Part shown: positions 1 to 13,857 of the stretch, piece after piece
Numbering within the stretch: the stretch's first letter is position 1
Layout of the letters: each line of letters starts with the position of its first letter
Notes under the pieces: model-generated
Told to the model about the DNA's origin: nothing
What the model saw: only the letters and a program-made list of their open reading frames with translations
The model's database searches: none
Position numbers and translations under genes: made by a program
IMG/VR virus record: IMGVR_UViG_3300025128_000396
Coordinates: 1 to 21,777 of that record
DNA from: a virus
Length of the DNA stretch: 21,777 bases
Reading direction: 5' to 3' (one strand)

Positions 1-750
1 GGTGCCGTCGCTGTCGTCCACATACATGATAGTTGCGCTGTCGAGGCTGGCGTTATTTAGCCGGATAAACCCAGCGCCCGGATCGGCGTCAGTTGTGGTG
101 GTCGAATACTGCATCGACACGCCGGCGTGACCCGTGCTGCCTTGCGGCACGCCAAGCGCCAAGGCGCCGGTACTAGCCGTGAAAGCGGCTGTCGCACTGC
201 CTGCTGCGCCAGCGGTCGGAGTGACCGTGCTGACGCTGACGCTGCTGACGCGACCTGTAACAGCTTCGATGCTGTTGCCGTCACTGGCAAATCCCAGCAG
301 CTTGTCCGCGCGCGCCGTAGCATCATCCACAAACTCAGGCGTTGTAATTGACGTGGTGCGCGAAACCTTAAACGATCGATCGAGCTGCTCTTGCAGATTC
401 TGCGAGACCATCGTCAGGCGATCAAGGCCGTCCTCATGGGACTCGGCTGGGAACGGATCATTTTCCACATAGTCGGTTGACTGCGTCAGCGCCAGGTTGC
501 GGCGAATGACAACCGTTTCGCCGGATGCCGGGGTGTTGCCCGTAGTAAAAGTGACATTGCCGCCGCTATCGTTTCCGGCGTTGCTGACGGTGTAATGCGT
601 CGTGAGCGTCTTGACCGTTTCGGCCCCGGTGCTTGCGCGAATGATGACCTCAAGATCCGCATCGGCAAAGATTTTGAACGCATACGCGAACGCGGTGGTC
701 GAGCCGTTTCCGCTATAGCTGTTTTTTGTGGTGGTTGAGCTGACACTCAT
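1..750 (-). CDS. Tail fibre protein, N-terminal part (T7 gp17-like), cut by left edge
   Basis: The frame from ATG 750 stays open for exactly 250 codons to the window edge, so only the N-terminal part is present. The start is MSVSSTTTKNSYSGNGSTTA, followed by AFAYAFKIFADADLEVI and a later block around DYVENDPFPAESHEDGLDRL. This pattern is the N-terminal virion-anchoring domain known from T7 tail fibres and many podovirus fibres or spikes. From about residue 150 it becomes low-complexity (S/T/A/V/G rich), as fibre shafts do. The ATG overlaps the TGA of the upstream 1049-aa gene as ATGA, so translation is probably coupled. The receptor-binding end is outside the window. An 86-aa reading in another frame over the same bases is a shadow. 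Confidence 0.88.
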   Translation of the reverse strand, partial: MSVSSTTTKNSYSGNGSTTAFAYAFKIFADADLEVIIRASTGAETVKTLTTHYTVSNAGNDSGGNVTFTTGNTPASGETVVIRRNLALTQSTDYVENDPFPAESHEDGLDRLTMVSQNLQEQLDRSFKVSRTTSITTPEFVDDATARADKLLGFASDGNSIEAVTGRVSSVSVSTVTPTAGAAGSATAAFTASTGALALGVPQGSTGHAGVSMQYSTTTTDADPGAGFIRLNNASLDSATIMYVDDSDGT

Positions 751-3700
751 CGCCTGATTTTCCCTTGTTCGTTGTATACGTCCTTGATTGTGATGAAGTC
801 GCGATAAGCGCGCGCAACGTCTCGATACTCCGGCATGGCAAACACGACCTCTAGGCCAGCGTCGTAGAAGCGGTCTTCAACCTCGCGCATGGCGCGGCGT
901 TGCTCCTTCTCGGTCATGCTAATAAACGCGACCGAGCTGACTAGGTTGTTAAGCGCCTGCGTGAATGTTTCCGCTGTGCCTGTCGTCGGGTTCTGCACGC
1001 TGATTGTTTTCTTTGCCGCGCGCGTCCACTCCGACTGAAACGCCTCACTAAAGGCAAAGCCGTCTGCTGCTTCCTTGGCAGTGCGCAGCGGCCCGTTGAG
1101 CGTGATCTGCAGGCGCTGCAGCGCGTTAGGCTCTTCGCCCTGTCGGATATTGAATGGCAAGATCAGATTGTACGCAGCCAGCACTGGATTGACGTCAAAC
1201 CGCACACCCATTTCGCGCTCTTCGCCGAATACGTCGTACTGGATCGCCGACGTCTCATCGCTGGCACCGCCCATGATCACGCGATCGTTCAGCATCGAGT
1301 TCCACTGCGCCAACGCATCACGAATGCCGGCGCCTACCGTGCCTTTTATCGTGCCGACTAGCTCGTATTGCGGGTTGCCGTCAGGGCCAGGAGGCATCCC
1401 TTGCACCTCTTCTAGCGTGTAATAATCGACGGCACCGCTGGGTCTGCGCTGCGTGGGATCTACTGCGCGCTCACCAGCTCGAATCGCTGCCGAGTACGGC
1501 ATACCTGACTTGAGTGGCCCCTCAAGCGCCAGACTGATATCGCCTTTTTCAAACGCCTCAACAATCTCGCCAATAATCTGAACCATTGGCATTTCAGTAA
1601 AGTATTGCGCACCCGCAGCGATCGCGTTGGTTGCAAGAGAGTTTCGCGCTTCGGGATCGTTGGTGCGGCGCATACGCTCAACCGTCGTTGCTGCGATGCC
1701 AAGGATAGCGCCGACCGGCTCAAGACCCGCATAGCTCACATAAGTCAGTGCGCCATTTGGAACGCCGGTGCGCGGATCAAACATCGGCAAGTCGTCGCCG
1801 TCTGCGTCCTTCGGCCAGTCGTCGCCTTTAAACACAAGCGAATACGGACGCCAGCCTGGCGGCAGCATATTGCGTTGATTTTCATCTTTCGGCATCGCCC
1901 CGGTAACACGTCCCGACGATGCGTATTCGGCAAAGGTGTACATGACGCCGAAGCCCATACCGGCGCGCGCGATTGCCTTCTGTCGTGCGACTGGATCTTT
2001 AAAGTATCCACCAGACACGCCCATGCGTTCCATTGAGCGCAGAATTGCGTTGGTCGGTGCGCTGACAAACGGAAGCAGGACGCGGCCAAAAAACGGTACA
2101 TACTTATGAAAGTTGCTTGTAAGGTCGCGCATAAGACCCAAGTCGGTCGTGAGCGTGTTGTAGCGCGCGGCCTCATCAAGCTGGTTTGCATATGAGCGCG
2201 GATCAAGAATGACCATCGCTGCGTTATCAAGAGCTTCCTGATCAGTCTTTCCTAGCGACCTCGCCATCATCGCGGAATGATATGCTTCAGAATACAGCTC
2301 GCCGCGCTGACTATAGACGCGCCAGAAATCATCAGCGGACATCAAAGCCCGGCCCGGTATGCGGATGGTTTTACCAGTAGCATCAGCAAACCGACCAGGC
2401 ATACCGCTCAGATTAAGATTTTCGGCGCTGATCGCTTTAAGCTGACCACCTTCGATTTTTGTTAGAGCGTCCGCGCCTTGCTCATACTTAAAGGTTTTGC
2501 CTGCGGTAATCAGAGCATCCTTAGTCGAACGGCTCCAACCGTAGACGCGCGCCATCGCTTGTCCGGCATACACACCGTCAGCGGTGCTGCCAAAACCAGC
2601 GCGGCCATACCCCTTTGACATATCTGCGCCGGTGAGCGCGCTTACGCCTTTGCCAATGCCGCGCTCGACGCCGCCGACTAAACCGGCCAGCACTTCCTCG
2701 GCTGTCTGGTACGCCATGAAAACGGGCGTGGCGAAGAAGTTTTTGACGTGGGTATAGGTCCAGCTCAACAGACCGTTGACGTACACTTCCTGGAACACGC
2801 CGTTAGCCTTACTGAGGTAGCCGCGAAAAGCATACGCATGAATTGCCGCTGACGGGTTGTTGCCGCCCTCCTCTGCTGCGCGCAACAAGCCTGCTGCAAG
2901 GCGTTTTGCTTCGCCTGCGCCGCCAGTCGAGCGCAATATCTCTGCCGCTGCTTGCGCCTGTGCTTCTGCCGTTCGCGCGCTGGCCGGAATGTTGAAGGCA
3001 GACAATGCGCGCGCAATTTCCGTCTGCATTCCTTTGACTTGCATCTGTATGCCGGCGTGGATTGCCATCTGTTTGCGAAAATTCAGCAGGGTGGCTGAAT
3101 CGTCAGCGCCGTCGCGTATCGTTCGCGCCAAGTCGGTCAGCCGCTCGCCCGATCGGACCAGCAAAATGCGCGCGGCAGTGGCTTGCTCAGCGTTGAGCAG
3201 CTCGCCGGTCTTGCGCTTGAGAATGGTCCGGGTAAAGCCCAGCTCGTCAGCAAGTAGCTCTTCAGCTCTATCAAGCGTCTCACCGTGACCGATTACGCCG
3301 CGCTTTGCTGCCTCAGTCGGGTCAGCGTAAATCTCGCTGACCTCGTTGAACATGTTCTTGACGTCGTCGCCGGTTTTTAAGTTTTGAAAATTGAAGTCCA
3401 GACCGTCTTCGCCGCTTCGCACAAAGTTGCTGACCCGCTCTGGCTCCGTAGCTCGAACAACACCAGCGGCGTCTATGTTATCGGCTGCACCAGCCTCGCC
3501 TGCGCCAGGGCGCAGTGCGGCTTGTGCGTCACCAACAACATCGGCAACCGGATCTGCATCAAGCGCGTCCAAGGCTTCAACCGTTGGTGGCGGATTGATT
3601 GCGTCTGTGGCTACGCCACCGGCTTCGTCGAATCGCTGTTGGCCTTCTGTCGACAATAGCCTCGGCGCAAGCTGCTCTTGCCGCTGCTGGTATGGATCAG

Positions 3701-3896
3701 GTTCGCCCAGCTCACGCTTCGGCAGCGCAATGCCTTCCTCGACCGACGTAGGCACGCCCTCGTCCGCACGTCGTGGTGCTTTGCCGAGCATTTGAAACAG
3801 CTCGCTAACCAGACCAGCGACCTGTACGCCCTCGTCATCAGGCGCAAGGGTGCCGCCCCGACGCGAAGCGTCGGCTGCTTGTTCTGAAATTGCCAT
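747..3896 (-). CDS. Large internal virion / DNA-ejection protein (T7 gp16 position)
   Basis: This 1049-aa protein lies directly before the tail fibre, the position of the largest ejection protein (gp16) in T7-like phages. The first 200 residues are acidic, Pro/Ala-rich and probably flexible. The middle has long helical stretches. A block around residues 530-700 (ALMSADDFWRVYSQRGELYSE, then ILDPRSYANQLDEAARYNTL, then VPFFGRVLLPFVSAPTNAIL) resembles the LPD38-type domain of large phage polyvalent proteins and contains hydrophobic segments. I see no lytic transglycosylase motif like the one at the N-terminus of T7 gp16. The start is ATG 3896 with a modest GGA at 3906-3904. It is the first gene after an intrinsic terminator, so it needs readthrough or its own promoter. 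Role by position: injected inner-core protein. The domain name is from memory. Confidence 0.72.
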   Translation of the reverse strand: MAISEQAADASRRGGTLAPDDEGVQVAGLVSELFQMLGKAPRRADEGVPTSVEEGIALPKRELGEPDPYQQRQEQLAPRLLSTEGQQRFDEAGGVATDAINPPPTVEALDALDADPVADVVGDAQAALRPGAGEAGAADNIDAAGVVRATEPERVSNFVRSGEDGLDFNFQNLKTGDDVKNMFNEVSEIYADPTEAAKRGVIGHGETLDRAEELLADELGFTRTILKRKTGELLNAEQATAARILLVRSGERLTDLARTIRDGADDSATLLNFRKQMAIHAGIQMQVKGMQTEIARALSAFNIPASARTAEAQAQAAAEILRSTGGAGEAKRLAAGLLRAAEEGGNNPSAAIHAYAFRGYLSKANGVFQEVYVNGLLSWTYTHVKNFFATPVFMAYQTAEEVLAGLVGGVERGIGKGVSALTGADMSKGYGRAGFGSTADGVYAGQAMARVYGWSRSTKDALITAGKTFKYEQGADALTKIEGGQLKAISAENLNLSGMPGRFADATGKTIRIPGRALMSADDFWRVYSQRGELYSEAYHSAMMARSLGKTDQEALDNAAMVILDPRSYANQLDEAARYNTLTTDLGLMRDLTSNFHKYVPFFGRVLLPFVSAPTNAILRSMERMGVSGGYFKDPVARQKAIARAGMGFGVMYTFAEYASSGRVTGAMPKDENQRNMLPPGWRPYSLVFKGDDWPKDADGDDLPMFDPRTGVPNGALTYVSYAGLEPVGAILGIAATTVERMRRTNDPEARNSLATNAIAAGAQYFTEMPMVQIIGEIVEAFEKGDISLALEGPLKSGMPYSAAIRAGERAVDPTQRRPSGAVDYYTLEEVQGMPPGPDGNPQYELVGTIKGTVGAGIRDALAQWNSMLNDRVIMGGASDETSAIQYDVFGEEREMGVRFDVNPVLAAYNLILPFNIRQGEEPNALQRLQITLNGPLRTAKEAADGFAFSEAFQSEWTRAAKKTISVQNPTTGTAETFTQALNNLVSSVAFISMTEKEQRRAMREVEDRFYDAGLEVVFAMPEYRDVARAYRDFITIKDVYNEQGKIRR

Positions 3897-3907
3897 GCGT
3901 TATTCCA

Positions 3908-3933
3908 ATAAAAAAGGCGCCCGAAGGCGCCTT
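3908..3933 (-). terminator. Intrinsic terminator with UUCG loop
   Basis: On the minus strand an 8-bp stem AAGGCGCC / GGCGCCTT closes a TTCG tetraloop (plus-strand stem 3914-3921 with 3926-3933) and is followed by a short T-run. It lies between the stop of the 53-aa gene and the start of the 1049-aa gene. The stem is perfect. The short U-tract suggests partial termination that lowers the level of the distal ejection protein and tail fibre. Confidence 0.85.
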
Positions 3934-3952
3934 GTTTCTTCACAAAGCAAGA

Positions 3953-4114
3953 TTACTCTTGCTTAAATTGGTCCGGTAATTCCGCTTCTTCTTCAGCGGT
4001 CAGCTCTTCCGGTGGATTGCCAAAATAGGCGAGGTCTAGATACGTCTCTCGATCCATCGGAAGACCCATACGCTTCATCAACGTAACTACGTCATCACTG
4101 CCATGCTGGAGCAT
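3953..4114 (-). CDS. Small acidic conserved phage protein (53 aa)
   Basis: The start is placed at ATG 4114 because a full AGGAGGT (4125-4119) precedes it by four bases, inside the end of the upstream 741-aa gene. The two genes overlap by 20 nt. A longer reading to 4159 would ignore this site. The protein has a basic N-terminal half (LMKRMGLPMDRETYLDLAYF) and a very acidic C-terminal part (GNPPEELTAEEEAELPDQFK). I recognise the motif 'R-E-x-Y-L-D-L-A-Y ... P-P-E-E-L' from small uncharacterised proteins in proteobacterial and phage genomes, but no function is established. It is followed immediately by an intrinsic terminator. It could be a small virion component or an accessory protein; I do not assign a role. 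Confidence 0.75.
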   Translation of the reverse strand: MLQHGSDDVVTLMKRMGLPMDRETYLDLAYFGNPPEELTAEEEAELPDQFKQE

Positions 4115-6320
4115 TGATACCTCCTGCTGCTTGTTCAACGGCTTGTCGGACTTCGTCAATCGACAAATCTCCGTTGCTATAGCTGCGCCAAATGTCGTCT
4201 ATAGCCTGCACATTTTTAGCAGTTTTAAAGCGACCCGTAAACATACCGCGCACCGCCTCCCAAGTTATAGATTGCAGCTCGCGCGGCAATATCCCCAGCT
4301 CTTCAGCAGCTTGTCTGTATGCTTCCGCATAGAGACCATATGTCCCCTGCACACCCGTTAGAGATGAATTTGCAGAAGCCTGCCAGCCCTCCGGCTGTTT
4401 GGCCTTCAACGGGGTTGAGCCGAAATTATGATGCACCTCTCGGCTTGCCCCAGACAAAGGACGCAACAGCGCCGCAGCAACGGCGTGCGTGTCAATTGTT
4501 ACATCGCCGTTTGCGCTATTAGGCTCAATGATGTTGTTATAGAAACTGCGCACTTTATGCTTTGAGCCAAGTATGTCGGTCATCAAAGCGCGATCACCAT
4601 TACTTTCGTATGCGCGCACAGCTTTAGATATTTCGACAAGCGACCCCCAGCCAGTTCCACTGGGCTGTCCCTTATCAGTCATAACAACATCACCAAAATC
4701 GCCTTCCGGCATAATTACGCGATGTGATCTGTCGTTATATGTCTCGTCATAAAGGCGAACAAAAAACGCCTTCATTTCTGGCTCCGCAAGATCGTCTAGG
4801 CTTTTGCCCGACATTGCTTCACGCAAGGTTTTGTATTTATCGCCAGAGAAAACCTCTTCCATGCGACGAGCCATGTCATCGCTAAATTGGAAAGACCTTT
4901 GGTTTGTCAGAATATCGAGTGTGCGCTCGGCAAGCGAAACATTCACAAACCAATCTTTTTGCGGAGACAGCGCAGCCATCACGCCCGCAACGGATGTATC
5001 AGGTACATTAAATCTTGCAGAGAACTCCTGCGAAATTTTGTTGGCGCCAGCGTACCAGAGCTTAGATCGCTGGCGCGTTTGCTCCGGCACGCGGTTGTGT
5101 AGCCAAATTAAATTTTCTTTTGCGTCATTTACAAACTGACCTGCAAACTCAACAGGATCAGCCGACGCATCAGCGCGCGCACCGGGATAAATTCTCAGAA
5201 TATCTGTGTTGCGCTGTAAGACCTTTGGATCAGCAGATACTGCTTCGTACCCAATGTTTAGCTGCGAGGCCACGGGGTCTTCTGATCGACGTGCGCCCGT
5301 CGGAAATCTGGCGCTTACCATGCGTGACTGTTCTGGCAGGGAGACAGTCGTTTTTGGCACAGAGACAGGGTCTTTTGGCACAGGCCCAACGCCCATGCCC
5401 AGCGTGTTGCCGCCGCCTATCATATCAACGCCACGATCGAGCGCCTGGTCAACGCCGCGTGCTGCGGAGCCACCAGCGGCAGTTATTTGCCCAACAAGGT
5501 CAGCAATCTTCTGGCCCTGATCAGTTTTAAGAAGCTCCTTACTTTTTCTCACCGCCGCAGGAACCGCGCGAATCAGCGCCTCACTGCCACCAAGAAACGC
5601 CAACGCTTCCACAGCGGTTTTGACGCGGTTCTGCCAATCAGAACTATCGGGATCTGTCGCCAACAAATTGCGCACCGCAGCAGCGGCTGGCGAAGCGGTG
5701 TCCTCAGAAATCATATTGAAAATGTTTTCGTCGTTTGGCGAAATGCCGAAATAGCCAGTCAGGCTATCCGCAACGACAGAGGCTAACACCGGCGAAGCGC
5801 CAACAGCGCGTAGCGCCTTGAAACCAGTCACCGCTGGCAAAACATACTGTCCGGTCATACTACCGGCAGCGCCTAAGACCTTAGCGCCGGGGCGACCCTC
5901 AAACGCCACGTCACTCGCCTCATCCATCATTTTAGTAAATTGATCAACCTTGTCCTGGTCAACAAGTCCAAGTCCGCTCGCGGTATTGGCAACGAACTTA
6001 ACAACACCTGAAGTAAGACCGCTGAAAATTGAATCGAGCGCAAATCCAACGTCGCCTATTTTTCTGAAGATGCTTTGATCTGGTGCCTCTTCCGCCTCTG
6101 CAGGTACTCCTGCCTCTATTGGTGTGGTGGGCGCTTCAATCTGCGGTGCTGGTGCAGGTTGATTGATTGCGACAGGCACGCCCATGACCATGCCATGCGG
6201 TGCGCCGTCGCTGTCGAACTCAACGTTGGCAAAGTCGTCTATCCCAAGCTGCGAAAAGTCCGTCTGGCTGACAGACGCGGCGACCTGATACTCGTCAGTC
6301 ATGTCGTCAAAACTGCTCAT
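4095..6320 (-). CDS. Internal virion-region protein with a VTIDTHA motif, possibly enzymatic (741 aa)
   Basis: The start is ATG 6320, which shares one base with the TGA of the 536-aa gene; the frame also has a TTG at 6323. Residues 1-270 are acidic at first, then hydrophobic or helical with glycine-rich stretches (for example VGFALDSIFSGLTSGVVKFV), which could contact a membrane. From about residue 420 to the end there is a compact, more conserved-looking domain. It has AALSPQKDWFVNVSLAERTL near 450, a KHKVRSFYNNIIEP block near 587-600 and VTIDTHA near 607-613. The spacing Lys ... (V/T)xDTHA is reminiscent of HhH-GPD DNA glycosylases (endonuclease III has a VDTH segment), but I cannot confirm homology. 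It lies among ejection proteins, so it is probably packaged and perhaps injected. Confidence 0.7.
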   Translation of the reverse strand: MSSFDDMTDEYQVAASVSQTDFSQLGIDDFANVEFDSDGAPHGMVMGVPVAINQPAPAPQIEAPTTPIEAGVPAEAEEAPDQSIFRKIGDVGFALDSIFSGLTSGVVKFVANTASGLGLVDQDKVDQFTKMMDEASDVAFEGRPGAKVLGAAGSMTGQYVLPAVTGFKALRAVGASPVLASVVADSLTGYFGISPNDENIFNMISEDTASPAAAAVRNLLATDPDSSDWQNRVKTAVEALAFLGGSEALIRAVPAAVRKSKELLKTDQGQKIADLVGQITAAGGSAARGVDQALDRGVDMIGGGNTLGMGVGPVPKDPVSVPKTTVSLPEQSRMVSARFPTGARRSEDPVASQLNIGYEAVSADPKVLQRNTDILRIYPGARADASADPVEFAGQFVNDAKENLIWLHNRVPEQTRQRSKLWYAGANKISQEFSARFNVPDTSVAGVMAALSPQKDWFVNVSLAERTLDILTNQRSFQFSDDMARRMEEVFSGDKYKTLREAMSGKSLDDLAEPEMKAFFVRLYDETYNDRSHRVIMPEGDFGDVVMTDKGQPSGTGWGSLVEISKAVRAYESNGDRALMTDILGSKHKVRSFYNNIIEPNSANGDVTIDTHAVAAALLRPLSGASREVHHNFGSTPLKAKQPEGWQASANSSLTGVQGTYGLYAEAYRQAAEELGILPRELQSITWEAVRGMFTGRFKTAKNVQAIDDIWRSYSNGDLSIDEVRQAVEQAAGGINAPAWQ

Positions 6321-7930
6321 CAATCAAATATCCGCAGGTCAAATGCTTTGTTTAGCGTGTTGTTGAAACCAAGCAGCAGCATGTCGGGGCTACCCGCTGC
6401 TAATTGCGCAGCAACCGCTTTCTGCACTTCTTCAAGGCTTGCTGTCGCCGGGTTTGGAATTTTACCTTTCAGCGTTGGGGTGAGTAACGAATACCCCGAA
6501 ATCAATGATTGTGTTTTGAATTGCTCAAACTGTGCTTCGAACCTCGGTTTCTGCAGCTTAATTAAACGATCCGCTTCAGCCATAACATCCTGATACGAAA
6601 CGCCGGGATTGGCTCGGATAAAGCGACGGATGTCGCGCGTTGATTGGAGATATGCTTGTCGAGATGGCGTGCCGATCAGCTCTCTATCAGCCAACTCGGT
6701 ATATCTGAACGTCGCTTTGAACTCGTTGATAGCGTCTGTTTCAGCTTCGCCGCGCTCTTGCTCCAAAGTGTTGAGCATGCCCGTGTACCACTGCCTCGTC
6801 ACTTTGTCTTTGTTCGCCAACAGCTCTTCGTAACTTAGCTGGTTCAGGCTTTCTTTTTCTTCTAGGTCAGCCTCTGCATCGTCGGTTGCTGCAGACTTTT
6901 TCGGGAACGCGCCGCCTTCGGACTCAGATTCTAGGCTACGCAGCAAGGCATCCACTTGTGACGGCTTCGTGAAATAACCAGCCGAAAGCAGCCGGTCCAA
7001 ATCGTTTCTAGCCTGTTCAACAGCCTCGGGGTCGTCGCGGTCCACGTTCACGATTGACCTGTGCAGAGCGTCGTTCGCTTGGTTGTCCTGCTCTTCCTTC
7101 TGCTCGCGCAGGTTCGTCCGCAGCTTGATTATGTTGTTGGCTTGCTTGGTCGCATCGTTGGCAATGTCGCTTAATTTCTCAGGCGTCAGGTTTGCTGCGG
7201 CGCTTTGCAGAACCGTGTCGGCTAAATTGCCCTCACGAAACTGCTGCACGATTGTCATCACGTCTGCGCCTGGCGCGTTTATGTGGGCGGCAAGCGTGTT
7301 TTCTACCAGATCCTCATAGTAGACCTCGCTGCGCTTCTGCACTTCTTCTGCGCCGATATCTCCCAAGGAGTCACCAATGCGCACTTGTCCTGACACCGCA
7401 GCAGATATGCGAGCCGTTGGACCTAAAGATAGATTTGCGGCAATCTTTACTGACGAATCTGTGTCTACAGTGAGATTGGCTTCTGCCGCTGCAACCACGC
7501 GCGCGTTATTTAATTTCGTAAACGACAGCAATCCCTGCGTCTGCACCTTTGTTGCAGACGCGGCGAACGATCGCCGCGCTAGGCTGTTAGACAGCGTCTT
7601 GCTGTATTTATCGATGAGGATCTTGCTGCCTGTGCGGTACTGCTGCTCCGCTGCAGACATATTTGGATTTTTCAGTGTTTGCGTTTCTAGGTCGGCCAGC
7701 TCAAGTTGCAATGCGCTCTGCGCACGTAACGCCTCACTCTCAGCGCCGATTTCGGCTTTCTTAAATCCGAAGTCCGCAATCTTTTTGCCAGTCTGCGCAA
7801 ACTCTAGATTGCTGTCGGTAAAGGCGCGTGCGGGTGCCGTCATCGCTGAAGCATTTAGCTGGGCCGTGATCGGTAAGCCTTGGCCCTTGCGTGGCCGCTG
7901 GAATTGCGCGTCGTAGGTTGGAACCTTCAT
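6320..7930 (-). CDS. Internal virion protein (T7 gp15 position, 536 aa)
   Basis: This is a soluble, strongly helical protein with many Ala/Glu/Gln/Lys residues and heptad-like stretches (for example TNLREQKEEQDNQANDALHR and ADLEEKESLNQLSYEELLAN). The N-terminus MKVPTYDAQFQRPRKGQG is typical of podovirus internal core proteins. No catalytic motif is visible. It sits after the gp14-like gene and before the large ejection proteins, the place of gp15 in T7. It is shorter than T7 gp15 (747 aa as I recall it). The ATG at 7930 shares one base with the TAA of the preceding gene. Expected role: part of the inner core stacked on the portal and later ejected to form the DNA channel. The role is inferred from position and composition. 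Confidence 0.75.
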   Translation of the reverse strand: MKVPTYDAQFQRPRKGQGLPITAQLNASAMTAPARAFTDSNLEFAQTGKKIADFGFKKAEIGAESEALRAQSALQLELADLETQTLKNPNMSAAEQQYRTGSKILIDKYSKTLSNSLARRSFAASATKVQTQGLLSFTKLNNARVVAAAEANLTVDTDSSVKIAANLSLGPTARISAAVSGQVRIGDSLGDIGAEEVQKRSEVYYEDLVENTLAAHINAPGADVMTIVQQFREGNLADTVLQSAAANLTPEKLSDIANDATKQANNIIKLRTNLREQKEEQDNQANDALHRSIVNVDRDDPEAVEQARNDLDRLLSAGYFTKPSQVDALLRSLESESEGGAFPKKSAATDDAEADLEEKESLNQLSYEELLANKDKVTRQWYTGMLNTLEQERGEAETDAINEFKATFRYTELADRELIGTPSRQAYLQSTRDIRRFIRANPGVSYQDVMAEADRLIKLQKPRFEAQFEQFKTQSLISGYSLLTPTLKGKIPNPATASLEEVQKAVAAQLAAGSPDMLLLGFNNTLNKAFDLRIFD

Positions 7931-8454
7931 TACACGATCTGACTTATTCTATAGCCGCTCATTGCGGCGGAACTTACGGCACCAAACATCTGGCTGCGCG
8001 CTTGGATGTCTGCAGCCATCTTCTGCGATCGGCCCTCAAGCAGAGTGAGCTGACCAGCTAGTCGCTGGTTGACGCCCTGCTGCCGCATACGCCCGGCATC
8101 GGTCGCCGCCTGCAGCCTAATGGTCTGCACATCTTCCTCTGCCTCGTTGGCGTTCTGCATCATCACCTCTAGCGGCGTGCCGCTGCTGGCAATGACGCCA
8201 GACTTGCGAAACGCTACACCTGCGCGCGCCTGCAGCTTGCCGAAGTCCTCACGGAACTCGCGCACCTCGCGATCGCCGACGCGCTCGCGCAGCTTGGCTT
8301 CCTGATCAGAGACACGCGCGTTTCGATCGCGGATCGACTTATTGTATTCGGCAGTCGCCAGCGCAGCTTTACCCGCAGCCTTTGTGCCGCGCGCCGCCTG
8401 CATTTGCCCGAAGGCCGAGATTGCCGAACCGGCTATTGCAAGTTCTACTCCCAT
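7930..8454 (-). CDS. Internal virion protein (T7 gp14-like, 174 aa)
   Basis: A hydrophobic glycine/alanine N-terminus (MGVELAIAGSAISAFGQMQA) is followed by a long, charged, probably coiled-coil helix rich in Arg, Gln and Glu. A GVIASSGTPLEVMMQNANEA block lies mid-protein, and RLQAATDAGRMRQQGVNQRL follows. This arrangement and block are characteristic of the gp14 family of podovirus internal or ejection proteins, which insert into the outer membrane during DNA injection. Its length is close to T7 gp14 (196 aa). The ATG lies 10 nt inside the end of the preceding GNAT gene, so translation is coupled. Assignment is good by motif and position. Confidence 0.82.
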   Translation of the reverse strand: MGVELAIAGSAISAFGQMQAARGTKAAGKAALATAEYNKSIRDRNARVSDQEAKLRERVGDREVREFREDFGKLQARAGVAFRKSGVIASSGTPLEVMMQNANEAEEDVQTIRLQAATDAGRMRQQGVNQRLAGQLTLLEGRSQKMAADIQARSQMFGAVSSAAMSGYRISQIV

Positions 8455-8888
8455 ATTCGCGCATACCTTTCATAGTCAGCACCGTCCGCGCCGTAGCGCA
8501 GCATCGTGCCTTCGTGTTTCATTCCCAAAAAACGCGCCCAGCGCGCCAGCTCCGGCCAGTCGCTTCGCATCGCAGCTTGCACGCGCCAAAACCCATGCTC
8601 TTCGGCCACATTGAGCAGCCCGGTTCTTGCGATCCTTGCTGCCGCGCGCGAATGCTTGGCTATCCTGTCCGCACCGAGCAACCACGCCTCGCCGACGCCC
8701 TCCCAAAGCGGAGCGATGCCAGCGGCACCAACCAGGTATCCATTGTCGATCGCAGAAAACGCCATGCCCGGATGCACGAGGTTTGGCATAAATGCGCCCA
8801 ACTTCGTTGGTGGGCGGTTGCGGTCGTCGTTTAGTTCGCCCTCAAGAAGTGCTTCGCCATGCGCGACCTCAAACGGAACCAGCCTCAC
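8445..8888 (-). CDS. GNAT-fold acetyltransferase-like phage protein (T7 gp13 position)
   Basis: This 147-aa protein starts at GTG 8888, which overlaps the TGA of tail tubular protein B as GTGA. The pattern is that of a small GNAT fold: a beta-rich first half (FSAIDNGYLVGAAGIAPLWE), a central WLLGADRIAKHSRAAARIAR segment where an acyl-CoA-binding turn would lie, and a C-terminal WPELARWARFLGMKHEGTML block typical of GNAT relatives. T7 gene 13 encodes a DUF2833/GNAT-like protein at the same place between the tail tube and inner core genes. It may be a virion-assembly factor that has lost catalysis, or an enzyme that modifies a virion or host protein. No substrate can be read from the sequence. 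Confidence 0.78.
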   Translation of the reverse strand: MRLVPFEVAHGEALLEGELNDDRNRPPTKLGAFMPNLVHPGMAFSAIDNGYLVGAAGIAPLWEGVGEAWLLGADRIAKHSRAAARIARTGLLNVAEEHGFWRVQAAMRSDWPELARWARFLGMKHEGTMLRYGADGADYERYARIWE

Positions 8889-11359
8889 TGGTCAAACGTA
8901 CTCAGCGTTGCATAGACGGCGAGGATGTTCATCGGCAGCGGCTGGTCCTGCCGGATGGTGAGCTGCCCGTCGCTGTCGTAATTTCCGTTCAGCTCAATTT
9001 CTTTGTCGCCGGTGTAGAGTGCGATCGGTGCATCCATTGCAGCAGCGCTTGATCGAAACGGCACGATGTCCAAATTGTTTGCATCACGCCCGACCTTCAA
9101 GCCCACGCTTTTGAGCAGGCGAACCGTAAGCTCGTTAATGCGTTTGATTTTGCCCTGGCTCGTACCCATCGCACTGCCAGCGTCAACGCGCAGCGTCCGC
9201 AGTGTCGAGTTGTAGGACAGACCAGCGTGCGCCTTCGTCACGTACCGCTCCAGCGTGACCGCGCCGCTCGATACCGTTTTGTCCGGGTGAACCGAACCGT
9301 CGCCCAATATGCTGACGGTCTGGCCTTCGAGGTGACTTAAGCCCGACAGAGACAACGCCGCTTGCGTAACTGTTGCGCCTGAGCTGTGCGCCGCTGCGGG
9401 ACCAACGACGCCGCGAACGCAGCCCGTCAGATCGTTCGTGCTTTTGCCGCTGTAGGTTATGACCTCGGTGCCAATCTTGATTGCACCAGAACTCGGAAAC
9501 GAAGAGGCGTCTGCGAGCGTGATAGTTGTTTGATCTGCCGCCTCGGCACCAGCCAGCGTGCTGGTCGCGCCTGTGAAGGTCAGCGAGCTATCAACAAAGA
9601 TTGCGTCGGCCACATCAGTGCCGAAGTCAAAGTCCCTGATGAACTCGATATACCTTTTAGTTGCGCTATTAACGGTGCGCTTAACCACAAAATAAAGCTG
9701 ATCCTCGTTTAGGTCGCCAGGGATCGATGCAATGCTCTCGACCACTGCGTTGCCGGTGGAAAAGCTGCCGCCGATAATCTGACGCGACCAGCCGATAACT
9801 TGCTCCTCGCGCTTGTAGGTCATGCAGGCAAGCTGCCCGTCGCCGCGCACGGTCCACAAAATGCTATCGGGTTCTTGCTGGTACGCCAGCTCGTCTAAAC
9901 CGTTTTCAGTAATGTGTTCGCTGATCAGCGTAACGTCAGGCGCAACGTATCCATCAACATCGAAGTTAAACTGCAGCTCAAGCATTTTACGCTTGGCACG
10001 TTGCACGAACAGAATAGCGTTACCCGCCTGTACCGGCATGATGTCCGCTGATCCGTGGCTCGTCTGTTGCTTGATCTGTATGTTCGTTGGGGTGATCGCC
10101 TCGTCCGCGCCACTAGCACGCACAACGAACTCGCCGCCCGATGTACCGAGTATCAAATTGCGCGTCGATGCAAGGAACCTGATGACGTTTACCTGATTAG
10201 AGCCGATCGTATAGACCATCGCGTCGTCGGCCTCGGTTCCGCTCTCAAAGTTCTCAAAGTCGCCGGACTGCGAAAAGAATAACGTCTGCGGCTGACTGTC
10301 TGTGCCAGCGAACACAAGGCGCTGCTCGTAGAATGCTACCGCGCGCGGAAATCCTGTCGCGAGACTGAAAGCGCCCAGCGACCACTTGGTTGTCGCAACC
10401 AGTTTGCCCTGCAGCGTGTGGCCGCTGTCTGCGCCCTCTGCCGCCAAGTCAGCGCCCGGTGCTAGTGTGATAACGCTGTCGGTCACATCGACGATTAAAT
10501 GTCCGGCAGTCGTATTGTTTGAGGTTGATCCGCTAATGATGATTGTCTGACCGCTCTTAAAGCCTTGGTCGATAAAAGCTGCAGCGGTGTCTTCGATGCG
10601 ATCGTTATGCTCTAGCCCGGTCGCGTCTGGGTCTCCCTCGTGAAATGAAATTGTAGCCGCTGCGTAGTTTGGCAAAATCTCTGACCGCCCGTCCTCCAGC
10701 TCCTGCGCTGTACCGTCTGCAACTGTTGCGGAAACGCGCGACGTGATCTTGACAAATCCGTCCTCGATCTTGACGAGGCGACCGACATCGTTGGCGGTCC
10801 ACAGATCCGCGCTTGCGGTTAGACGGATGGTGCCGTCGCGGCTGTCCGCCGTCAGCGTAGTGGTCGTTATGTTCTGGTCAAGGAAAGGTCCGCGCGCAGT
10901 CGTTACCTCGGTGATTGTCCAAGCGGTGTGACTGGTGCGAGTGATCTTGTAGATTGGGTGGTTGGGGCTGACGATGTACATGACGTCTGCCGCTTGGGCA
11001 AACTTTAGTCCTGCCAGATCAGACGCGGTATAAACTGTCGTGACCTCGACCGCTGAGCCGCCAGATTCCACCTGACCGCCGTCCTTGTAGATGCGGAAGT
11101 AGGTTGGTCCGAACTCAAGAATGTATGCTTGCTCAACATTAAACTCGAACGGCACTAGTCGAACTGCGTTGGCACTGCTTTTCACTTCACTGATAAAGCG
11201 GGTGCCAGGGCGACGGTTCACACCGCCATGCGGTTGGACGATAAAATTCTCAACGGTCTCGGCACCGTTCTCATATTTGGCAATGTCTGTGCGCCCGAAC
11301 AAGCGTGGCGTGATCTCGCCAGCGGTAAAGTTCGCGAACGCTTTTGATACTTTCGGCAC
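8885..11359 (-). CDS. Tail tubular protein B (T7 gp12-like nozzle protein)
   Basis: At 824 aa it is close to T7 gp12 (794 aa). The start KVSKAFANFTAGEITPRLFG and the following GGVNRRPGTRFISEVK are hallmark motifs of podovirus tail tube B / stabilisation proteins. The central RLVFAGTDSQPQTLFFSQSG and SGGEFVVRASGA blocks belong to the beta-propeller part. The protein forms the distal nozzle of the short tail and binds the fibres. The start is GTG 11359, immediately after the TAG of tail tubular protein A (no gap). The end overlaps the GNAT gene by 4 nt. Complete. Confidence 0.93.
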   Translation of the reverse strand: MPKVSKAFANFTAGEITPRLFGRTDIAKYENGAETVENFIVQPHGGVNRRPGTRFISEVKSSANAVRLVPFEFNVEQAYILEFGPTYFRIYKDGGQVESGGSAVEVTTVYTASDLAGLKFAQAADVMYIVSPNHPIYKITRTSHTAWTITEVTTARGPFLDQNITTTTLTADSRDGTIRLTASADLWTANDVGRLVKIEDGFVKITSRVSATVADGTAQELEDGRSEILPNYAAATISFHEGDPDATGLEHNDRIEDTAAAFIDQGFKSGQTIIISGSTSNNTTAGHLIVDVTDSVITLAPGADLAAEGADSGHTLQGKLVATTKWSLGAFSLATGFPRAVAFYEQRLVFAGTDSQPQTLFFSQSGDFENFESGTEADDAMVYTIGSNQVNVIRFLASTRNLILGTSGGEFVVRASGADEAITPTNIQIKQQTSHGSADIMPVQAGNAILFVQRAKRKMLELQFNFDVDGYVAPDVTLISEHITENGLDELAYQQEPDSILWTVRGDGQLACMTYKREEQVIGWSRQIIGGSFSTGNAVVESIASIPGDLNEDQLYFVVKRTVNSATKRYIEFIRDFDFGTDVADAIFVDSSLTFTGATSTLAGAEAADQTTITLADASSFPSSGAIKIGTEVITYSGKSTNDLTGCVRGVVGPAAAHSSGATVTQAALSLSGLSHLEGQTVSILGDGSVHPDKTVSSGAVTLERYVTKAHAGLSYNSTLRTLRVDAGSAMGTSQGKIKRINELTVRLLKSVGLKVGRDANNLDIVPFRSSAAAMDAPIALYTGDKEIELNGNYDSDGQLTIRQDQPLPMNILAVYATLSTFDQ

Positions 11360-13069: not shown

Positions 13070-13857
13070 CATTATGTTCGCCTCAATTCGCTAAACTGAG
13101 ACCGCTTTCGCTGCTGCACGTCGCCGCGCAGATCAGACCATATCATCACCCAGATGGGTGTCTGGCGCTTCGGCTGGGCTTCCAGCCTACTCCCTTGCGG
13201 GATGGTCGTTGCACCTTCCCCAAATTGGGGCTTGGATCAGGATTGTCTCTTACGAGGTTTCCCCTGAGTTCACCAGATTTTCGAAATGGATTGCTCCATC
13301 AAGCCGCATATTTTTACGGACCTTGTCACTATCATCAATCAGGTCAGCCCACTCATAAGTGGTGAGCGCGACCATGCGCCGAGAGTGAGGTGTCTCGACT
13401 AGTGGTGTGTCGCCGTGGCGCGATGTGCGCGCGATGGCGGCGCTTTCTCCGATTTGGTCGAAAACGATTTCTTCAATCTAGTTCGTTAAACTAGACCGGC
13501 TGCACGAAGCAGCTCCCCTGCCTTTCGGACAGGGACGAGACTATATCATCACCCTAGAAACTAGGGGCTAGGCGCTTCGGACCACTTGGCCCTACTCCCC
13601 GAAGGGATAGTCGTTGAAGGTTCCGCTTGCGCGGCTTCCCTGCTGATTGCCATATCCTTGCGGACTTAGGGTTCCCAGCAATTCACCTAGTTTGCACGCG
13701 CCCATTACTGGGCGGTGGCTCTTTATTCAAAAGCCTTTTCGCCGGTGACACTTTCCGTGTCCACGGCCCCTCGCAACAGACTACCCATCTGCTGCGAAAG
13801 CATACTGACATTCGATGAAAACTGGTTCACGAATGCAGTAGTGATCTGAGTAGACAT
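12488..13857 (-). CDS. Major capsid protein, split into three exons by two group I introns: join(13857..13731, 13464..13316, 13069..12488)
   Basis: No single reading frame covers this gene. Exon 1 (127 nt) starts MSTQITTAFVNQFSSNV, a typical start of this podovirus capsid family, and reaches E-K-A plus one base. Exon 2 (149 nt) continues F-F-D-Q-I-G and carries RHGDTPLVETPHSRR and YEWADLIDDSDKVR. Exon 3 (193 aa) starts MLIDPTSSYARAAAAAMGRA. Joined, they give 285 aa without a stop, and both junctions (KAF/FDQIG and DKVR/MLIDP) read as expected for the family. Intron 1 is phase 1, intron 2 phase 0. The start at 13857 rather than 13863 is chosen because TAGGAG (13870-13865) is seven bases from 13857 but only one base from 13863. 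Capsid protein can be made only after two self-splicing events. Splicing is predicted, not demonstrated. Confidence 0.92.
13070..13315 (-). ncRNA. Group I intron 2 in the capsid gene (246 nt, subgroup IA-like)
   Basis: P1: exon CCGU with intron GCGG, U.G at the splice site. P10: exon 3 AUGU with AUAU just before the guide. P2: GAUGGA-GCAA-UCCAUU. P3: UCUGGUG (13277-13271) with CGCCAGA (13167-13161). P4: UCAGG (13267-13263) with CCUGA (13241-13237). P5: CUC-GUAA-GAG. P6a: CCCCA-AUU-UGGGG. P7: GACCAU (13207-13202) with AUGGUC (13141-13136). P7.1: CCC-GCAA-GGG. P7.2: GGCUGG-AAGC-CCAGCC. P8: CACCC-AUCU-GGGUG. P9: CUGCGC...GUGCAG, then CUCAGUUU-AGC-GAAUUGAG. It ends GAACATAATG with terminal G 13070; I recall the same end in the T4 td intron. 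No internal ORF codes for a recognisable protein. P3 and P7 differ from intron 1 by paired changes, which supports both structures. Confidence 0.94.
13316..13464 (-). other. Capsid exon 2 (149 nt, between the two introns)
   Basis: This short coding segment has no start codon of its own and is easily missed by gene callers. It codes for the conserved capsid stretch beginning FDQIGESAAIARTS and ending at WADLIDDSDKVR. Its first bases (TTT) can pair with AAA upstream of the guide sequence in intron 1 (P10). Its last bases CCGT pair with GCGG of intron 2 (P1). Confidence 0.9.
13465..13730 (-). ncRNA. Group I intron 1 in the capsid gene (266 nt, subgroup IA-like)
   Basis: Read 5'-3' on the minus strand. 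P1: exon GGCUU with intron GAGCC, ending in U.G. P2: CGCCCA-GUAA-UGGGCG. P3: CUAGGUG (13690-13684) with CGCCUAG (13574-13568). P4: UGCUG (13680-13676) with CAGCA (13645-13641). P5 carries a GCAA loop (UCC-GCAA-GGA). P6a: CCGC-GCAA-GCGG. P7: GACUAU (13612-13607) with AUAGUC (13544-13539). P7.1: CCC-UUCG-GGG. P7.2: GGGCC-AAGU-GGUCC. P8: CCCUAG-UUU-CUAGGG. P9 region: three hairpins, the last CUAGUUU-AAC-GAACUAG. The terminal G is 13465. The core closely resembles the T4 td intron as I remember it (CAACGACUAUCC, GAGUAG, GAUAUAGUCU). No ORF for a homing endonuclease lies inside. Insertions P7.1/P7.2 point to subgroup IA. Confidence 0.93.
13731..13857 (-). other. Capsid exon 1
   Basis: It codes for the first 42 residues plus one base of codon 43. 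Its last five bases GGCTT pair with GAGCC in intron 1 to form P1, with the last exon U opposite G. If not spliced, translation would add F and E and stop at TAA 13725-13723 in the P1 loop of the intron. Confidence 0.88.

Follow-up and report, generated by a model that had tools for sequence, protein, structure and literature searches.

An HhH-GPD-like domain of the DUF7178 family as a candidate exchangeable cargo of a phage ejection protein

Introduction

In phages with T7-like cores, it is well established that internal proteins are ejected with or ahead of the genome. The described enzymes that come closest to the domain analyzed here belong to the HhH-GPD superfamily, for which catalytic lysine-aspartate pairs have been reported, K129/D147 in Methanocaldococcus jannaschii OGG2 (MjaOGG2), where His133 and Trp198 form a base sandwich (PMC5069365), and K140/D172 in AGOG (PMC9638937). 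Structure comparisons identify Gln315/Phe319 of OGG1, Asp194/Trp198 of OGG2, and Asp218/Trp222 of AGOG as equivalent base-pocket residues (PMC3397491). A third point of reference is the polyvalent proteins, for which a role as injected effectors in conflicts has been proposed (Iyer et al. 2017, PMC5512222), in an article that nowhere uses the word 'glycosylase'.

Here we describe a protein encoded in a 21.8-kb viral record, IMGVR_UViG_3300025128_000396, the whole of which (21,777 nucleotides) is referred to as the window. We estimate at roughly 60% the probability that the C-terminal domain of this 741-aa protein is a divergent HhH-GPD base-excision enzyme that is carried as exchangeable cargo on a packaged, ejected virion protein and acts on DNA at entry. 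New here are the exchangeable cargo of an ejection protein and a predicted catalytic centre for the domain family DUF7178; our literature search surfaced no ejected HhH-GPD enzyme in phages, and none of the papers found names DUF7178.

Results

The gene occupies a slot in an ejection cassette

The 741-aa ORF starts with an ATG at 6320, with an in-frame TTG located one codon upstream, and the plus strand of the same region (4095-6320) contains stops throughout. The gene order is tail tubular protein A, tail tubular protein B, the protein in the GNAT position, the gp14-like protein, the 536-aa protein, the 741-aa protein, the 1049-aa gp16-like protein, and tail fibre (Table 1). Judged by tail tubular protein B, the nearest cultured phages are Pelagibacter podoviruses (up to 55% identity), in which the slot of the 741-aa gene is annotated as 'putative internal virion protein'; no match to DUF7178 was detected in this slot of the cultured Pelagibacter relatives. 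Among the 58 scorable viral loci, that is, those with the domain in a protein of at most 1200 aa, the next gene downstream is gp16-like in 42, and in 38 of the 42 tail tubular protein B also lies upstream. The preliminary description of this DNA, made from the sequence alone, had rightly assigned the gene to the ejection region: it lies between the gp14-like and 536-aa genes on one side and the gp16-like gene on the other. Given the position in the cassette and the annotation of the Pelagibacter slot, the protein is likely to be packaged in the virion.

Elsewhere in the window, on the minus strand, the major capsid protein gene is interrupted by two group I introns that lack ORFs (13516-13740 and 13114-13325; Rfam RF00028, 77.0 and 77.7 bits). 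Both inserts are missing in two relatives (L004 and L276), where this gene is continuous.

Table 1. Positions in the window of the cassette genes, the parts of the 741-aa protein, and the residues of its predicted active site
Feature	Position	Strand	Evidence or comparison
gp16-like internal virion protein, 1049 aa, immediately downstream	747..3896	minus	phrog_6651 'internal virion protein', E 1.3e-11
Ejection-cassette gene, 741 aa: N-terminal virion module and C-terminal DUF7178 cargo	4095..6320	minus	
536-aa upstream ejection-cassette protein (gp15 position)	6320..7930	minus	position and synteny
gp14-like internal virion protein	7930..8454	minus	phrog_418 'internal virion protein', E 8e-14
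Small protein in the 'putative acetyltransferase' (GNAT) position of Pelagibacter phages	8445..8888	minus	phrog_308 'internal virion protein', E 4e-7; synteny
Tail tubular protein B / nozzle	8885..11359	minus	phrog_376, E 4e-225; PF25675
N-terminal module, residues 1-316	5373..6320	minus	kept in relatives with differing C-terminus
Segment replaced as a block in L279	3940..5371	minus	no alignable DNA between flanks
DUF7178 / HhH-GPD-like domain, modelled residues 361-741	4098..5240	minus	mean pLDDT 94.3
Insert, about residues 479-559, including small beta strands	4644..4886	minus	in virion-fused members; stand-alone members lack it
Lys589, predicted Schiff-base nucleophile	4554..4556	minus	83/83; aligned with OGG2 Lys; cf. 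MjaOGG2 K129, hOGG1 K249, AGOG K140
Phe593 (Lys+4), predicted base-sandwich residue	4542..4544	minus	83/83; MjaOGG2 His133 likewise Lys+4
Asp610, predicted catalytic Asp of the GPD element	4491..4493	minus	83/83; aligned with OGG2 Asp
His612 (DxH)	4485..4487	minus	80/83, otherwise Trp; cf. hOGG1 His270
Gln683	4272..4274	minus	83/83; cf. hOGG1 Gln315, OGG2 Asp194, AGOG Asp218
Trp687 (Gln+4)	4260..4262	minus	82/83; cf. hOGG1 Phe319, OGG2 Trp198, AGOG Trp222

The C-terminal domain belongs to a widespread phage family

The C-terminal domain matches Pfam DUF7178 (PF23802) with 97.7 bits (E 1e-27), above the gathering cut-off of 27 bits; the match runs from residue 400 onwards, and the domain boundaries lie at about residues 385-741. 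The domain also matches phrog_3842, function unknown, and NCBIfam returned nothing for the 741-aa protein. A scan of viral contigs with the single protein yielded 18 loci, an alignment scan of viral contigs at least 576 relatives, and a scan of genome contigs 20 loci. Comparison of the window gene with the two non-identical homologues nearest to it gave a pS of 0.77 (saturated) versus a pN of 0.14-0.16, so that the protein sequence is under strong constraint. Comparative sequence evidence, namely, the Pfam match, the more than 570 relatives, the invariant residues, and the pS and pN values, confirms that this ORF and domain are not products of chance.

DUF7178 matches were found in 124 cultured-phage records, many of them stand-alone proteins of about 200 aa. 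The stand-alone proteins are mostly annotated as hypothetical and sometimes as 'glycosylase' or 'N-glycosylase/DNA lyase', as in Microbacterium phage Cece gp22, Synechococcus phage S-CRES3 gp63, and Mycobacterium phage Kumao gp115. The fusion, too, occurs in a cultured phage, Roseobacter phage CRP-738 (gp40). Tunturiibacter phage Tunturi_3 gp111 (L132, 4959-5555), a stand-alone DUF7178 protein encoded directly 3' of a gene annotated as ATP-dependent DNA ligase, is labelled 'portal protein', which is probably a misannotation. The window-type and stand-alone profiles align with a probability of 99.6%, with one large deletion at about residues 479-559. In a phylogenetic tree, the virion-fused forms comprise one clade (support 0.98), in which ejection-protein and megaprotein forms are intermixed; Rctr197k is placed among the stand-alone forms, and this grouping suggests a separate capture of the domain.

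Structure and sequence comparisons point to HhH-GPD enzymes

AlphaFold yielded models with pLDDT of 94.3 for the window domain, built on an alignment of 54 sequences from viral and bacterial/archaeal loci, and of 94.8 for an insert-free stand-alone homologue (199 aa). The window-domain model contains a helix-turn-helix in which the lysine starts the second helix, and the aspartate starts the next helix. When the PDB was searched with Foldseek, this model matched AGOG (1XQP) first, with a probability of 0.77, the remaining matches being noise, whereas the top match of the stand-alone model was the DNA-bound M. jannaschii OGG2 (3KNT; probability 1.00, TM 0.62), accompanied by S. solfataricus OGG, T. 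maritima OGG, an AGOG-like protein, mammalian OGG1, MUTYH, and MagIII. All matches of the stand-alone model above a probability of about 0.1 are HhH-GPD enzymes. The E-values are weak, 0.016 at best and 0.11 for the window domain, of which the insert of about 80 residues probably blurs the fold match. The preliminary description had proposed that the last 300 residues fold as an enzyme of the HhH-GPD type and had named an unrelated fold as the outcome that would speak against this; structure prediction and Foldseek returned a related one, with AGOG as the sole above-noise PDB match of the window-domain model, which supports that reading.

At the sequence level, a mixed DUF7178 profile aligned with OGG2 sequences, collected via Pfam PF22175, over the C-terminal half with a score of 39.1 (E 7e-5, probability 64%), whereas 100 column shuffles averaged 12.8 and reached 21.4 at most; under the same protocol, the accepted relatives OGG2 and Nth, used as a positive control, gave an E-value of 1e-5. 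In a fuller alignment, the Lys, Asp, and His of DUF7178 fall on the catalytic Lys and Asp and the following His of OGG2. The window-type profile alone gave no significant match to OGG2, with 14 of 100 shuffles reaching its score, and the hhalign comparison with an Nth-type alignment was not significant either, although the Lys/Asp/His of the stand-alone profile were in register. Searches of PDB sequences with the 741-aa protein, the family alignments, and the N-terminal alignment returned only noise, and PF00730 did not match the 741-aa protein. An AGOG-type model of NCBIfam matched one stand-alone member weakly (E 0.16), and no sequences were retrieved with the AGOG profile PF09171 from the genomes searched.

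Predicted catalytic and base-pocket residues are conserved

Across 83 divergent aligned DUF7178 members, six residues never vary (83/83): Ser452, Asn460, Lys589, Phe593, Asp610, and Gln683. The stretch KHKVRSFYNNIIEP...VTIDTHA, which had reminded the preliminary description of the Lys...DTH layout of HhH-GPD enzymes, is present in the 741-aa protein, and the numbering given there for Lys589 and Asp610 is exact; the resemblance holds, given that both residues are invariant and correspond in the alignment to the catalytic Lys and Asp of OGG2. The pair Gln683-Trp687 shares the +4 spacing of the published base-pocket pairs, and an aromatic residue is found at Lys+4 as well.

Other features set the domain apart from the established families. 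The C-terminal lysine of OGG2 is absent: stand-alone members end, for example, in RRIHGV, and the 741-aa protein in APAWQ. This lysine is the 8-oxoguanine sensor of OGG2, and 8-oxoguanine is therefore not to be assumed as the substrate of DUF7178. The hairpin, LGSKHK / LxGPK, is short and non-canonical compared to the canonical LxGxG. AGOG, an accepted superfamily member, also has a non-canonical hairpin (PMC3397491, PMC5069365), so that the missing LxGxG lowers the likelihood of HhH-GPD membership but does not exclude it. Membership in Nth or MutY is ruled out by the lack of cysteines among the 741 residues, and hence of the 4-Cys iron-sulfur cluster, and membership in OGG2 by the lack of the C-terminal lysine. 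The domain is best described as HhH-GPD-like, outside OGG2, Nth, and MutY.

The cargo is exchanged among relatives

In one relative (L279), the DNA is 95% identical to that of the window up to 5372 (residue 316), cannot be aligned from there to 3939, and is again 96% identical over 3.9 kb. Here, a different domain, of unknown family, has cleanly taken the place of the whole block. The alternative cargo (1-2050; FIEEIQSDWWSQGQKRG...) has no Pfam or PHROG match, forms the C-terminus of the corresponding protein in L277 as well, and has distant relatives in Pelagibacter phage HTVC028P and Dolichospermum phage Dfl-JY45. The gap between the 741-aa gene and the gp16-like gene, about 198 bp in the window (3897-4094) but only about 10 bp in L279, lies mostly within the exchanged block.

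Further variants were found at other loci. The protein ends after the N-terminal module, with no cargo, in L280 and L284, and the same N-terminus is joined to a different short C-terminus in L276. L286 encodes a tail tubular protein B with 92% identity and yet a highly divergent DUF7178 domain (Pfam 37.5 bits). In L289 (ORF 4995-8144) and L291 (ORF 4152-7157), the same N-terminal module carries other large cargos, for which no cultured-phage match was found. A K...F...D resemblance of these two cargos to HhH-GPD was seen by eye only; HMMs lent it no support, and we make no claim of it. The converse case is L003, in which the cargo shows 78% protein identity but the gp16-like protein only 27%, and the cargo block alone aligns as DNA. 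Together, the swaps among the relatives and this converse case indicate that the N-terminal module is stable and the C-terminus exchangeable, much as though the injection protein were a vehicle for delivering interchangeable cargo.

Predicted mode of action and its alternatives

According to the reading that we favour, the protein would be synthesized late and packaged in the head through its N-terminal module, as its position suggests, and, given the cassette, would be ejected into the host with or ahead of the genome, for which a folded domain of some 380 residues would have to pass the podovirus channel. A flipped-out base could then be held in a pocket formed by Phe593, Gln683, and Trp687, whereupon Lys589 would attack with the assistance of Asp610 as catalytic acid/base, resulting in base release and beta-elimination; we infer this step from the conserved residues and the chemistry of the superfamily. 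The predicted activity is that of a bifunctional N-glycosylase/AP-lyase, which most likely would remove a damaged or host-added base from incoming phage DNA, host DNA being a less likely target. The incoming genome is favoured because delivery at entry precedes any expression of repair genes.

The company that DUF7178 keeps in large proteins bears on the choice of target. The domain shares a single large phage protein with LPD22 (L010, L019), with ART-PolyVal (L018), with both (L024, phage zth2-2), or with a methyltransferase and a sub-threshold ART-PolyVal match (L022, Rhodobacteraceae phage LS06-2018-MD07). In a 1702-aa protein from a Bacteroidetes-binned contig (L117, 2026-7131), DUF7178 is preceded by DUF3293 and a sub-threshold S-adenosylmethionine-lyase match. 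Judging from their domain content, these large DUF7178 proteins are polyvalent-protein architectures. Such partners, an exchange of cargo that resembles an arms race, and the proposed role of polyvalent proteins as injected conflict effectors (PMC5512222) would fit a variant in which the same enzyme, delivered in the same way, targets the host chromosome, a plasmid, or a defence component, and nicks or inactivates DNA or counters defence. The stand-alone relatives in accessory regions, however, one of them beside a gene annotated as DNA ligase, fit repair equally well; we regard this variant as the main alternative, yet as doubtful.

Many of the stand-alone relatives are ordinary intracellular phage genes, which could also suggest that the protein, although produced late, stays out of the virion and that its enzyme works inside the cell in which it is made, for instance by repairing DNA prior to packaging. 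Two observations make this unlikely: the domain is joined to a conserved N-terminal module in the slot between the gp14-like and gp16-like genes, and it is recurrently fused to very large proteins in tail or virion gene regions. Still less do we expect the resemblance in fold to be superficial, that is, an all-alpha convergence in some other enzyme: the weak Foldseek E-values and the lack of a significant PF00730 match would be compatible with this, but the PDB matches above noise all come from one superfamily, and the catalytic and base-pocket residues occupy equivalent positions with equivalent spacings. Most improbable of all is a non-catalytic DNA-binding part of the ejection machinery that retains the fold, despite the location in a structural cassette and the binding of the DNA backbone by HhH elements (PMC3397491), given that neither the catalytic Lys and Asp nor the base-pocket residues vary across very divergent members, close relatives dispense with the domain altogether, and stand-alone forms exist outside structural regions.

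Discussion

The interpretation of DUF7178 as an injected HhH-GPD-like enzyme would assign a fold and a predicted catalytic centre to a widespread phage domain of unknown function, along with an activity that can be tested. The replaceability of part of an ejection protein implies that the podovirus injectate may include DNA-acting enzymes that function in the first minute of infection. Confirmation of this would add a base-excision enzyme to the ADP-ribosyltransferases and nucleases that are predicted or known to be injected by phages. A bolder and rather improbable extension is that, in marine podoviruses, this slot generally serves to deliver exchangeable enzymatic cargo, and that the present cargo strips a base adduct added by host defence, such as an ADP-ribosylated or otherwise modified base on the incoming DNA; this would be an injected base-excision counter-defence, at work before any phage gene expression.

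Among the known enzymes, MjaOGG2 (3KNT) is the best PDB fold match of the family, its catalytic Lys and Asp and the following His align with those of DUF7178, and a Trp occupies the position of Trp198; DUF7178 differs in the missing sensor lysine, Gln in place of Asp194, a shorter hairpin, the insert, and an identity of about 10%. AGOG (1XQP) is the top PDB match of the window-domain model and likewise has a non-canonical HhH, but shows no significant sequence relation. The stand-alone DUF7178 proteins are clear homologues with the same invariant K/F/D/Q/W, whereas the window domain differs from these products of genes in accessory regions by the insert of about 80 residues and the fusion to an ejection protein. 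Polyvalent proteins are multidomain, virion-context proteins predicted to be injected, and DUF7178 is found in proteins of this kind; the 741-aa protein, by contrast, simply joins two parts, and Pfam detected no LPD, ART, or ArdC domain in it. The setting of this fusion matches the T7-like gp14/gp15/gp16 cassette of Pelagibacter podoviruses, such as Skadi and HTVC203P, in which the genes follow the same order.
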